From a virus: 21,245 nucleotides of DNA. Every line of letters starts with the position of its first letter. Position 1 is the stretch's first letter. The DNA lies in IMG/VR virus record IMGVR_UViG_3300044995_000057, positions 1-21,245 of that record. One strand, written 5' to 3'. Below the pieces are notes generated by a model, which saw only the letters and a program-made list of their open reading frames with translations, was not told where the DNA came from and searched no databases. Positions 7,100 to 18,209 of this stretch are shown piece by piece. A program made the translations under genes and the position numbers.

Positions 7100-7143
7100 A
7101 GGTATTGCATTGTCAGCGATTTTGTCGTACCATTGACATAAAT

Positions 7144-8535
7144 ATGATACAAATTGTACGTCCAACCAACCAGATGGTGGCGCTGGCAGACCTTGCGCCA
7201 CATCCTCGTAACTACAACCGCCACCCAGCGGCACAGGTGCGCAAGCTGGCGCAAAGCCTGCGCAAGTTCGGCCAGGTGCGCAGCGTCGTCGTGTGGCGTT
7301 CGACCATCCTGGCGGGTCACGGCGTCGTCGAAGCGGCGAAATCGTTGAACTGGCAGCACATCCGTGCTGATGTGCTGCCAGACGATTACCCGGAGCACCT
7401 GGCGCTGGCGTATGTAGCCGCAGACAACGAACTTGCGCGGCAGGGCGATCCGGACATGGCGCAGTTGGCCGCCATCCTGGAAGAAATCAAAGACGTAGAC
7501 GCCGAACTGCTGGAGGCGGTCGGATACAGTGACGCCGAATTTGCGGCGCTGCTGGCGGAAGTCGGCGGCGAACAGCGTGGCATCGTTGACGCTGAGCCGC
7601 AGATCGACCGGGCGGAAGAGTTGCGGAAAAAATGGCGCGTGGAGCCTGGCCAGCTGTGGCAGCTCGGCGAGCACCGGCTGATCTGCGGCGATTGCACCGA
7701 TGCGGCGGTGGTGGAGCGTTTGATGGCGGGGGAGAAGGCGGATATGGTGATCGCAGACCCTCCCTACGGCTTGAGCATCGTCGCCGCCAACGTATCCGTT
7801 GGCGGCGGAGAATCCGCTGCGGGCATGATTCCTTCTGGCGGGAAGAAAGGGCGCAGAAAAGGTTATGTTGGCGGTGGCGAAGGTTATCGCCTTCGCCACG
7901 GGCATTACGCAATCGAGGAGTATCAAAAAAACAAAAGGCTCGGCGCCATTGGGGGCGCCAAGCCTTTTGGATCGAGCAACGTGCGCGGCTCCAATAGAGC
8001 CGCGCGCGTTGTTGACGTTGGCAAATATATGCCGATCGTGGGGGATGAAACAACAGACACGGCGATCCGGGCTGTGACATTTTATTTGAATGCGTATCCT
8101 CAAGCTGCGCAATTTTGGTTTGGTGCGAATTATTATTCTGAAGTATTGAAAGCCTCGCCATGTTGGGTAGTATGGGATAAGGAAACGACAGGGAATTTCG
8201 CTGATTGTGAACTGGCATGGAGTAACGTAAATCGGGCTGCTAAAGTCTTTAGGCATCGGTGGAACGGGATGCTCCGTGATTCTGAACGAGGACGTAGGTG
8301 GCATCCCACACAAAAACCGGCAGCGCTTGCTGCATTTTTGATGACCGAATTCGGCAAGATGGGCGATATTGTGATCGACCCGTTTGCTGGCGCTGGATGG
8401 ACTGTGATCGGAGGCGAAAATACAGAGCGACGCGTGAGGGCGATAGAATTAGTGCCAGAGTATATCGCAGTCATTTGCGAGCGCTGGTCGCAGGCAACCG
8501 GCAAGACGCCGGAGTTGGTGAACGATGGCAGCTGA
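7144..8535 (+). CDS. ParB-like domain fused to beta-class DNA methyltransferase (463 aa)
   Basis: Residues about 10-135 form a ParB/sulfiredoxin-type domain (NRHPAAQVRKLAQSLRKFGQ, then V-V-V-W, I-L-A-G-H-G, A-D-N-E-L-A). The methyltransferase part has the catalytic motif D-P-P-Y-G-L at 205-210, placed before the SAM-binding motif F-A-G-A-G at 414-418. That order is the beta class of N6-adenine or N4-cytosine enzymes. The conserved H-P-T-Q-K-P is at 387-392. Such fusions are common in phages and may protect DNA from restriction. The open frame reaches upstream to 6982, but the ATG at 7144 is where protein-like sequence begins; no Shine-Dalgarno site precedes it. Residues 244-290 are encoded by three consecutive hairpins, and from about 7900 to 8480 the codon use is more AT-rich than in the first half, which suggests a mosaic gene. 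Confidence 0.9.
   Translation: MIQIVRPTNQMVALADLAPHPRNYNRHPAAQVRKLAQSLRKFGQVRSVVVWRSTILAGHGVVEAAKSLNWQHIRADVLPDDYPEHLALAYVAADNELARQGDPDMAQLAAILEEIKDVDAELLEAVGYSDAEFAALLAEVGGEQRGIVDAEPQIDRAEELRKKWRVEPGQLWQLGEHRLICGDCTDAAVVERLMAGEKADMVIADPPYGLSIVAANVSVGGGESAAGMIPSGGKKGRRKGYVGGGEGYRLRHGHYAIEEYQKNKRLGAIGGAKPFGSSNVRGSNRAARVVDVGKYMPIVGDETTDTAIRAVTFYLNAYPQAAQFWFGANYYSEVLKASPCWVVWDKETTGNFADCELAWSNVNRAAKVFRHRWNGMLRDSERGRRWHPTQKPAALAAFLMTEFGKMGDIVIDPFAGAGWTVIGGENTERRVRAIELVPEYIAVICERWSQATGKTPELVNDGS
7874..7899. repeat. hairpin 1 inside the methyltransferase gene
   Basis: A perfect 10-bp inverted repeat, GTGGCGAAGG at 7874-7883 and CCTTCGCCAC at 7890-7899, with a six-base loop. It encodes part of the variable stretch after the D-P-P-Y motif (residues about 244-252). 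Confidence 0.85.
7932..7969. repeat. hairpin 2 inside the methyltransferase gene; minus-strand terminator-like
   Basis: The 16-base arms CAAAAGGCTCGGCGCC (7932-7947) and GGCGCCAAGCCTTTTG (7954-7969) pair at 15 of 16 positions across a six-base loop. On the minus strand the stem is followed directly by a run of seven T (7931-7925, interrupted by G at 7932), the layout of an intrinsic terminator. On the plus strand the stem ends in CCTTTTG without a longer T run. It encodes residues about 263-276. Confidence 0.85.
7977..8011. repeat. hairpin 3 inside the methyltransferase gene
   Basis: The 15-base arms CAACGTGCGCGGCTC (7977-7991) and GAGCCGCGCGCGTTG (7997-8011) pair at 14 of 15 positions across a five-base loop. 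It starts only seven bases after hairpin 2 and encodes residues about 278-290. Confidence 0.85.
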
Positions 8536-13215: not shown

Positions 13216-13248
13216 AGAAAAAGGAAACGCCACATTCCACACAAAAAA

Positions 13249-13464
13249 TCAAGCATTCTCCTCCGGCGGCACAAACCCAACCGCAGTGTTCTCGATGCGC
13301 CAGCCTTCCGGCACGTTGAGCATCTCACGCGCCGCCTCGACCAAATCGTTGATGTGGCGCTGCTGCTGTTGAATCATCGCCTGCATCGCCTGCTGCTCCT
13401 GCAGTGCCTTGTCCAGCATCGCACGCACCTTCGGTGGCAATGCCACCACTTTCTTGTCGCTCAT
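13249..13464 (-). CDS. small coiled-coil phage protein (71 aa), last gene of the leftward late operon
   Basis: The start ATG at 13464 has AAAGGAG nine bases upstream; the longer open frame above it is non-coding in character. Residues about 10-50 form a glutamine-rich amphipathic helix, probably a coiled coil (ALQEQQAMQAMIQQQQRHIN). The C-terminus, L-N-V-P-E-G-W-R-I-E-N, then G-F-V-P-P-E, resembles the end of short proteins found behind tail genes in many phages; their function is unknown to me. Immediately past the stop, minus-strand transcription meets T6 without a clear stem. Confidence 0.75.
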   Translation of the reverse strand: MSDKKVVALPPKVRAMLDKALQEQQAMQAMIQQQQRHINDLVEAAREMLNVPEGWRIENTAVGFVPPEENA

Positions 13465-13469
13465 TCGTT

Positions 13470-13727
13470 TTACTCCTTTAGCACGTACTTCCTGGATAGA
13501 ATCGCCATCGGCGTTGCGCCGACACCCTCCAGCGGCGTGTTCAGCCACTGCTCCAGCGAAGCCAGCACGGCGCCCCACGCCTCCCATGCCGTGAACGGAA
13601 GTCCGGCGATCAGCGTGTCGGCCTCCGTGACGCTTGCCGGATTTTCCGGCGTTGCCGCCATCAACTCGGCGGCTGCCTCCTGCGCCGCCTCGATCAGCGC
13701 CGGAATCTCGTTTGCGTGCCAGGCCAT
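13470..13727 (-). CDS. hypothetical protein downstream of the CHAT gene (85 aa)
   Basis: A minus-strand gene between the CHAT gene and the last small coiled-coil gene. The start is uncertain: ATG 13727 lies 17 bases past the CHAT stop and keeps the protein-like part. An in-frame GTG at 13799 would overlap the CHAT gene by 55 bases and has no ribosome site. The protein is acidic and helical at the N-terminus (EIPALIEAAQEAAAELMAA). The second half is more hydrophobic (TLIAGLPFTAWEAWGAVLAS), then ends in L-S-R-K-Y-V-L-K-E. The hydrophobic stretch is amphipathic and too broken for a membrane span. No family is recognised. Its position in the same mRNA makes it a possible partner or antidote of the CHAT protein, which is inference only. 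Confidence 0.68.
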   Translation of the reverse strand: MAWHANEIPALIEAAQEAAAELMAATPENPASVTEADTLIAGLPFTAWEAWGAVLASLEQWLNTPLEGVGATPMAILSRKYVLKE

Positions 13728-13744
13728 CTTCAGCGCTTCTGATT

Positions 13745-14395
13745 TTAAAACCTGATCAGTCCCAGCGCGAGCACGAGCAGCATCATTGCGAGCAGCCACA
13801 GATGCTGGCGTGCGTTGCGCTTCATTTGCTCTTCGACCGCGCGCAATCTGCGCTCAAACTCATGCCAGCTATCTGCGGCATGGCGCAACAGGTGATTTCT
13901 GCTCAGCAGCATCCAGTCGTTGCGCTTAGGCACAGACGCAGTGAACGCTTGTTCCACTGCGTCGTTGAATTTGACGCCGACGCTCAAAAGCTCGCTCAGC
14001 CGTCTCGCAAAAATAATCGCAACCCCCATCGCCGCCTGCGACTCGCACTCGTCCGCTGTGGCGATGACGTTGCAGCCGGCGTCGTAGTTGATGCGTCTTG
14101 CAAGCAGCTCCGTTTTGCATGCATTGAGCACGAGTAGATTCGCTCTTGCGTGACGGACGATCGCTGCAAAGTCGTTTGCGTTGAGAAGCTCCGTCTCGTT
14201 GAGCCAAAATCCGCTTTCGTCCGCATGCCCGACGCACCAGACGATGTCATAGCGCGTGCTGCGAGAAAGCAGATCCTTTTTGCGCACGGGCGGCAAGAGG
14301 ACGTCTGCGTGCAGAATCGACGTCAACTGCTCCACTTCATCCACCATCGAACGCTCTTGCTCAGATAAGATCAAGAGCGTGCGCACGCCATTCAT
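13745..14395 (-). CDS. small CHAT-fold (caspase-like) protein with C-terminal membrane anchor (216 aa)
   Basis: CHAT proteins are caspase-related cysteine peptidases. The Cys/His signature is present and spaced as in the family. Y-D-I-V-W-C-V-G-H-A-D at 49-59 carries the catalytic-type His57, followed by G-F-W-L-N-E. L-L-V-L-N-A-C-K-T at 87-95 carries Cys93. N-V-I-A-T-A-D-E-C near 109-117 and a helix with A-A-M-G-V-A-I-I-F-A-R-R-L follow, then N-D-A-V-E-Q-A. The C-terminus has a charged helix (EFERRLRAVEEQMKRNARQ) and one hydrophobic span, residues about 199-214, ending R-F, like a tail anchor with the peptidase in the cytoplasm. There is no TPR, death-like or NB-ARC domain. ATG 14395 is chosen over an in-frame TTG at 14428. 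The gene lies behind the tail fibre and between small unknown genes in the late operon; the substrate is unknown. Confidence 0.8.
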   Translation of the reverse strand: MNGVRTLLILSEQERSMVDEVEQLTSILHADVLLPPVRKKDLLSRSTRYDIVWCVGHADESGFWLNETELLNANDFAAIVRHARANLLVLNACKTELLARRINYDAGCNVIATADECESQAAMGVAIIFARRLSELLSVGVKFNDAVEQAFTASVPKRNDWMLLSRNHLLRHAADSWHEFERRLRAVEEQMKRNARQHLWLLAMMLLVLALGLIRF

Positions 14396-14396
14396 G

Positions 14397-14459
14397 TCAC
14401 TCGTCTTCCCCGCCGTCCGTCGCCACAAAACCGACTTCCAGATCGTCGATGCGCAGCAA
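14397..14459 (-). other. 20-codon reading frame between two late genes (possible C-terminal extension or micro-ORF)
   Basis: Starting at a TTG without a ribosome site, this frame encodes L-R-I-D-D-L-E-V-G-F-V-A-T-D-G-G-E-D-E and stops one base before the CHAT start. It is in the same frame as the 114-aa gene upstream, separated from it only by that gene's TGA and three codons. Its acidic, strand-like composition looks coding, unlike the Arg-rich alternatives in this gap. It may be a remnant of an extended C-terminus, a read-through product, or chance. Confidence 0.25.
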
Positions 14460-14468
14460 TACGTTCTG

Positions 14469-14813
14469 TCATCGTTGTTTTTCTTTCTGTCGCTCTTCTC
14501 TCACACCTTCTGCTTTTTCTCGTCTCTGCGTGATTTTTCGCTCCGGCCTCTGCCGCAAAACGACGGCCAGCGCTTCCAGCGTGAAGCGCCATTCGTCCCA
14601 CTGCTCCGCCGGAAAGCTCCCCACCGCCTCCCCTTTCACCCTCGCCGTTGCTAATTTTGCCTGCAGCTCCTCGTCGTTCATTTCGTTTAATATGAAGTCG
14701 ACGAGAATACGCAGGTGATGCAGCAGTAGAGCAACCTGTCCGACCATCATATTCGCAAGCTGCGTTTCCTGTGGTTCATCCCACCGGTATTCAATTTTTA
14801 ATTCTTTACTCAC
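14469..14813 (-). CDS. hypothetical helical protein behind the tail fibre (114 aa)
   Basis: The start is a GTG at 14813 with GAGGAG upstream; the site lies beside the stop of the tail fibre gene, so the two are coupled. Residues 1-75 are a helical domain with a hydrophobic helix (NMMVGQVALLLHHLRILVDF) that contains two His and one Arg, so is more likely a packed helix than a membrane span. A segment W-D-E-W-R-F-T-L-E-A-L-A follows. The last 28 residues are highly charged and probably disordered (RPERKITQRREKAEGVREER). The family is not recognised. It is followed by the short gap that leads to the CHAT gene. Confidence 0.75.
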   Translation of the reverse strand: MSKELKIEYRWDEPQETQLANMMVGQVALLLHHLRILVDFILNEMNDEELQAKLATARVKGEAVGSFPAEQWDEWRFTLEALAVVLRQRPERKITQRREKAEGVREERQKEKQR

Positions 14814-14825
14814 GTTCTTTTCTCC

Positions 14826-18205
<3,380 letters not shown>

Positions 18206-18209
<4 letters not shown>

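Follow-up and report, generated by a model that had tools for sequence, protein, structure and literature searches.

CHAT proteases are tightly gated parts of bacterial immunity. The locus described here raises the question of whether a short protein encoded behind a phage tail fibre gene truly belongs with these proteases and, if so, what it would do there. The window, which is the whole stretch of DNA that was analysed, comprises 21,245 nucleotides (positions 1 to 21,245 of IMG/VR virus record IMGVR_UViG_3300044995_000057).

Gene and operon setting

The gene of interest is an open reading frame without an internal stop whose ATG start at position 14395 is kept in a contig of a sister phage. 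In agreement with a sequence-only reading of the window, it lies behind a tail-fibre-like gene in a late tail-side operon, where PHROG matches to tail and tail fibre families identify the 1127-aa neighbour and a same-strand run of tail-side genes faces a head operon (terminase, portal, head morphogenesis and neck). The same gene layout recurs in contig L002, which derives from a different metagenome, so the arrangement is not an assembly accident. The gene, its parts and its neighbours are as follows:

13745-14395 (-): CHAT-anchor gene, 216 aa
13889-14395 (-): CHAT (caspase-like) domain, residues 1-169 (profile match over residues 34-152, structure match over residues 2-169)
14225-14227 (-): codon of His57, the putative catalytic His
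14117-14119 (-): codon of Cys93, the putative catalytic Cys
13802-13900 (-): charged helix joining the domain to the predicted anchor, residues 166-198 (from the model helix and residue charges)
13754-13801 (-): predicted C-terminal apolar anchor, residues 199-214
14469-14813 (-): upstream 114-aa gene, no function assigned
13470-13727 (-): downstream 85-aa gene, no function assigned
13249-13464 (-): 71-aa gene, homologue of a 73-aa gene directly upstream of the CHAT gene in the sister phage
14826-18209 (-): 1127-aa tail fibre or tail protein

The 85-aa gene probably starts at ATG 13727, which is preferred over a longer ORF that overlaps the CHAT gene. Elsewhere in the window, a gene at 7135-8532 (+) encodes a C-terminal DNA methylase domain (N6_N4_Mtase) behind a weak ParB-like N-terminus (E 0.14).

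The CHAT domain, its putative active site and the C-terminal tail

Searches of Pfam, NCBIfam and PADLOC returned no match to the 216-aa protein, and two weak PHROG matches were both to families of unknown function. Pfam family PF12770 was not matched at E ≤ 1, although such a match reflects a curator's detection threshold rather than a defining CHAT trait. Given this lack of curated family matches, the CHAT assignment was examined with sequence profiles and a fold comparison. Scored against 30 other CHATs in a profile that left the protein itself out, it reached 47.6 bits across residues 34-152, well above the best of 20,000 shuffled sequences (11.2 bits), with a mild circularity in that the profile seed was drawn from the protein's own matches. 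With a profile of long TPR-type CHATs picked by Pfam the score was just 16.4 bits (best shuffle 15.2), so the phage protein belongs not to that group but with the short CHATs. The best sequence match in the PDB is SAVED-CHAT, a type III CRISPR protease (8tl0, E 0.035), with the GH and LNAC motifs aligned.

An AlphaFold2 model built from two near-identical rows alone reached a pLDDT of 47.8 and was not used, whereas adding two distant IMG/VR CHATs to the alignment gave a pLDDT of 83.4 and a pTM of 0.73. Residues 2-169 of this model again matched SAVED-CHAT best (Z 15.1, rmsd 2.9, 159 aligned residues, 23% identity), followed by procaspase-6, gingipain and other caspase-fold enzymes (Z 11-12.6), and Foldseek concurred; since the two added rows could have steered the model, fold and profile evidence are not fully independent. 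The caspase-hemoglobinase fold that characterises the CHAT clade is thus present in the model, whose alignment contained two known CHATs. These results confirm the first ~165 residues as a divergent CHAT (caspase-like) domain, as had been read from the sequence, and the comparison of predicted structure with CHAT and caspase folds proposed at that time came out in its favour.

A host gene joined to the phage by assembly error, or a chance caspase-like motif, would account for the missing curated families and the very small number of viral relatives. This explanation is hardly credible: the gene occurs in four IMG/VR records representing two phage arrangements, and this multi-contig evidence contradicts it, while shuffled sequences score far below the protein and the fold match extends over 159 residues.

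SAVED-CHAT carries a SAVED cyclic-nucleotide sensor at its N-terminus, whereas the phage protein has no such domain and instead features a predicted C-terminal membrane anchor. The nearest full-length sequence relatives, found in a search of 400 Chloroflexota genomes, are CHAT-NTPase-TPR proteins (E 3.8e-6) and one CHAT-TIR protein, at 27-31% identity. Both architectures are typical of conflict systems; unlike the phage protein, these relatives carry NTPase and TPR domains or a TIR domain and lack a comparable C-terminal anchor. The TPR region is also absent, and CHAT domain and anchor together take up all 216 aa, which bears out the earlier description of a CHAT protein with neither sensor nor TPR domain. 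The caspase-like fold is common to the phage protein and Csx29, the TPR-CHAT of Craspase (7y85, Z 11.4), but the phage protein has neither the TPR region nor a Cas7-11 partner, and its profile similarity to long TPR-type CHATs is much weaker. A direct gasdermin or Craspase link, which had been raised from the sequence, was not upheld, as no partner was seen.

Among named genomes, every relative of the phage terminase comes from Chloroflexota, with Anaerolineae in the majority, and the host is probably a member of this phylum. CHATs are encoded in 38 of 121 sampled Chloroflexota genomes, and a host origin of the phage CHAT domain is likely. One short host CHAT, a 236-aa frame on contig L119 (genome G035), features an N-terminal segment rich in Asn instead of a sensor domain.

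The His/Cys signature noted in the initial reading proved to be conserved: His57, within a GHA motif, and Cys93, within an LNAC motif, fall in alignment columns that are His and Cys, respectively, in 31 of 31 other CHATs. Two further positions that are invariant in those 31 proteins differ in the phage protein, where W53 replaces the first His of the HxxGH motif and S134 replaces the Tyr of the FY motif, a departure that the sequence-only reading had missed. Neither the His nor the Tyr is known to be catalytic and, despite their invariance in the sampled CHATs, they were not taken as CHAT-defining. The presumed dyad therefore appears intact in an unusual setting and, given the W53 and S134 substitutions, catalysis is plausible but unproven. 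These altered residues are the reason for retaining the reading in which the protein is catalytically inactive and serves as a membrane scaffold or decoy. A relatively high dN/dS of 0.34, against 0.04-0.08 in neighbouring genes, points the same way, albeit from small counts (7 non-synonymous and 6 synonymous differences); by the same token, selection for activity is not firmly shown by two variants that differ so little. Against an inactive protein, both variants keep the His/Cys pair intact along with the LNAC and GH motifs, and we regard this reading as unlikely.

In the model, a single helix of ~49 residues spans residues 166-214 and ends in a 16-residue apolar tail. Residues 199-214 contain no polar or charged residue, a run of a length reached in only 38 of 20,000 shuffles, and the 17-residue Kyte-Doolittle mean at the C-terminus is 2.47. 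The 19-residue hydropathy maximum was reached by 420 of 5,000 shuffles, which is weak evidence by itself and makes the apolar run the better test. A single C-terminal membrane anchor is therefore likely from hydropathy and one model, and the prediction agrees with the membrane span and the preceding charged helix originally proposed. Basic residues lie on the N-terminal side of the apolar tail and, by the positive-inside rule, the CHAT domain should face the cytoplasm. A comparable tail anchor was found in none of five short host CHATs in which it was looked for.

The combination of charged helix and tail had also been likened to XhlA-type lysis proteins and to a fusion of a peptidase with a holin partner. 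The XhlA family gave no match at E ≤ 5 to the C-terminal 46 residues, which cover the coil and anchor, so an XhlA-type lysis protein is not supported. A broader role in lysis or cell death, in which the anchored peptidase damages envelope machinery as infection ends and promotes progeny release, would suit a membrane-tailed protein encoded late behind a fibre gene. Elsewhere, CHAT peptidases are drivers of cell death, and the genes scanned included no recognisable holin or endolysin. However, little weight attaches to the missing lysis genes, as the window is a fragment; the protein matches neither XhlA nor a holin, and its CHAT domain is predicted to face the cytoplasm. The gene is also patchy and exchanged (see below), unlike a core lysis gene, which leaves a lysis effector improbable.

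Exchange of the CHAT cassette and the accessory junction

Sister contigs L003 and L008 encode a protein 97% identical to that of the window, and these are the only two variants known. The order of genes around the CHAT gene differs between the two phages, and a comparison of the window with the sister gave a dS of 0.041 for the CHAT gene but 0.25-0.63 for six neighbouring genes. The CHAT gene is thus a recently exchanged accessory cassette, a feature missed by the sequence-only reading. The following elements delimit it in the window:

13727-14435 (-): exchanged cassette, 97.9% identical to the sister phage (flanks 87-92%)
14396-14435 (-): remnant of the 3' end of the sister's 73-aa gene (VGFVATDGGEDE-stop)
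13733-13744 (-): first half of a hairpin that is broken in the window and complete in the sister (-32.9 kcal/mol, z -7.2)

The sister's CHAT gene begins 4 nt after the stop codon of the 73-aa gene and is followed by the strong hairpin; at the cassette edges in the window, only the last codons of the 73-aa gene and the first hairpin arm are left. These remnants suggest that the sister arrangement is ancestral and that the window looks to be the recipient. Since a U tract is missing from the CHAT strand, we do not interpret the hairpin as terminating the CHAT gene; the convergent gene may be the one that it serves. The gap between the 114-aa gene and the CHAT gene is spanned by a 26-aa reading frame at window 14392-14471 (-), where stop and start codons overlap at either end; this frame may be a coupling relic of the cassette insertion.

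The sister CHAT gene adjoins an island between convergent operons that encodes a Csx16 homologue, an RHH regulator and a pentapeptide-repeat protein (L008:7600-8352 (+)). The Csx16 gene, at L008:7127-7405 (+) and about 1 kb from the CHAT gene, was identified by PF09652 (E 1.3e-17, 64 bits, cut-off 25) and also matched by PADLOC, which makes its product a candidate viral cA4 ring nuclease or type III anti-CRISPR; no Csx16 gene is present in the window. Csx16 has been shown to degrade cA4 as a ring nuclease and is rare in phages, with 2 occurrences in 28,114 genomes (PMC12409355). The island site is taken by different small genes in two more sister contigs; it lies where the head and tail operons converge, an accessory hotspot whose occupant differs from one phage lineage to the next:

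window 13216-13248; L008:6411-8406; L009:6328-7288; L010:14206-14779: head/tail convergent-operon junction

The Csx16 neighbour and the kinship with SAVED-CHAT are grounds for considering counter-defence, whereby the protein would cleave or titrate a host defence protein, such as one that host CHAT or type III CRISPR proteases cleave or associate with. The frequency of CHATs in Chloroflexota genomes, a nearest solved relative from type III CRISPR and the proximity of the sister's ring-nuclease homologue all fit such a role. Conversely, the protein has no SAVED or other recognition domain, the window lacks Csx16, and the position in the operon points to late production, which suits counter-defence poorly. 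Together with the 4-nt coupling in the sister, this position favours late expression, with which exclusion or killing fits better than an early counter-defence function. Overall, counter-defence seems rather unlikely.

Rarity and proposed role

No relatives of the CHAT protein were found in GenBank phages and plasmids or in the genome contigs searched. Pattern-seeded scans of IMG/VR, which miss diverged members, found no version of the protein beyond near-identical copies; canonical CHATs turned up in 4 contigs, of which three represent one prophage type. An IMG/VR query with a single canonical CHAT found none. BFVD includes two viral proteins without an assigned function whose folds are similar (E 2e-9 and 3e-6); given these and the limits of the scans, phage CHAT-like proteins are rare but not unique. 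The protein is accordingly as unusual for a phage as had been suggested, and a homology search for the same CHAT-anchor layout in other phages, proposed alongside that suggestion, returned only the near-identical IMG/VR copies.

The earlier reading had missed that prophage-borne CHAT genes have precedent, which was found here. A prophage-like coiled-coil-CHAT gene at L126:2512-3594 (+), also present in L124 and L127, is likewise CHAT cargo beside phage genes and has canonical motifs; it differs from the phage protein in lacking a tail anchor, in its N-terminal coiled coil, which resembles candidate defence protein PDC-S66, and in lying on the strand opposite a terminase small-subunit-like gene. 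The literature searched contained no report of a phage-borne CHAT protein, nor of one that lacks a sensor, has a tail anchor and is exchanged as a cassette; this combination is what is new here.

Computation shows the CHAT fold, the aligned His/Cys pair, the apolar tail, the operon position and the recent exchange; the catalysis, cytoplasmic topology, timing, target and benefit of the protein are inferred. The gene would be transcribed within the late tail-side operon, and its product would be attached by the C-terminus to the host cytoplasmic membrane, on the inner face. Late in infection, the anchored peptidase would cleave one or a few proteins close to the membrane, belonging either to the host or to a competing element, and the outcome would be that of a conflict factor acting in superinfection exclusion, killing or counter-defence. 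The recent swap between sister phages suggests an accessory weapon or shield. We give about even chances to this preferred reading, in which the protein is a sensor-less CHAT-fold cysteine peptidase, membrane-tethered and made late as a conflict factor from an exchanged accessory gene, with no part in the virion. A more far-reaching version is possible but doubtful: phages may have stripped the sensor from a bacterial immune CHAT domain to obtain a standalone, membrane-tethered caspase-like protein that acts as executioner or exclusion protease, and may pass it among themselves as a modular cassette through an accessory site open to anti-CRISPR genes as well.

If this is true, phages wield the same executioner fold as bacterial immunity, anchored in the membrane and free of a sensor. 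The phage CHAT would offer a small test protein for the behaviour of an ungated CHAT at the membrane, and its exchange with the sister phage, beside the site of the Csx16 homologue, marks one site at which Chloroflexota phages keep conflict genes.
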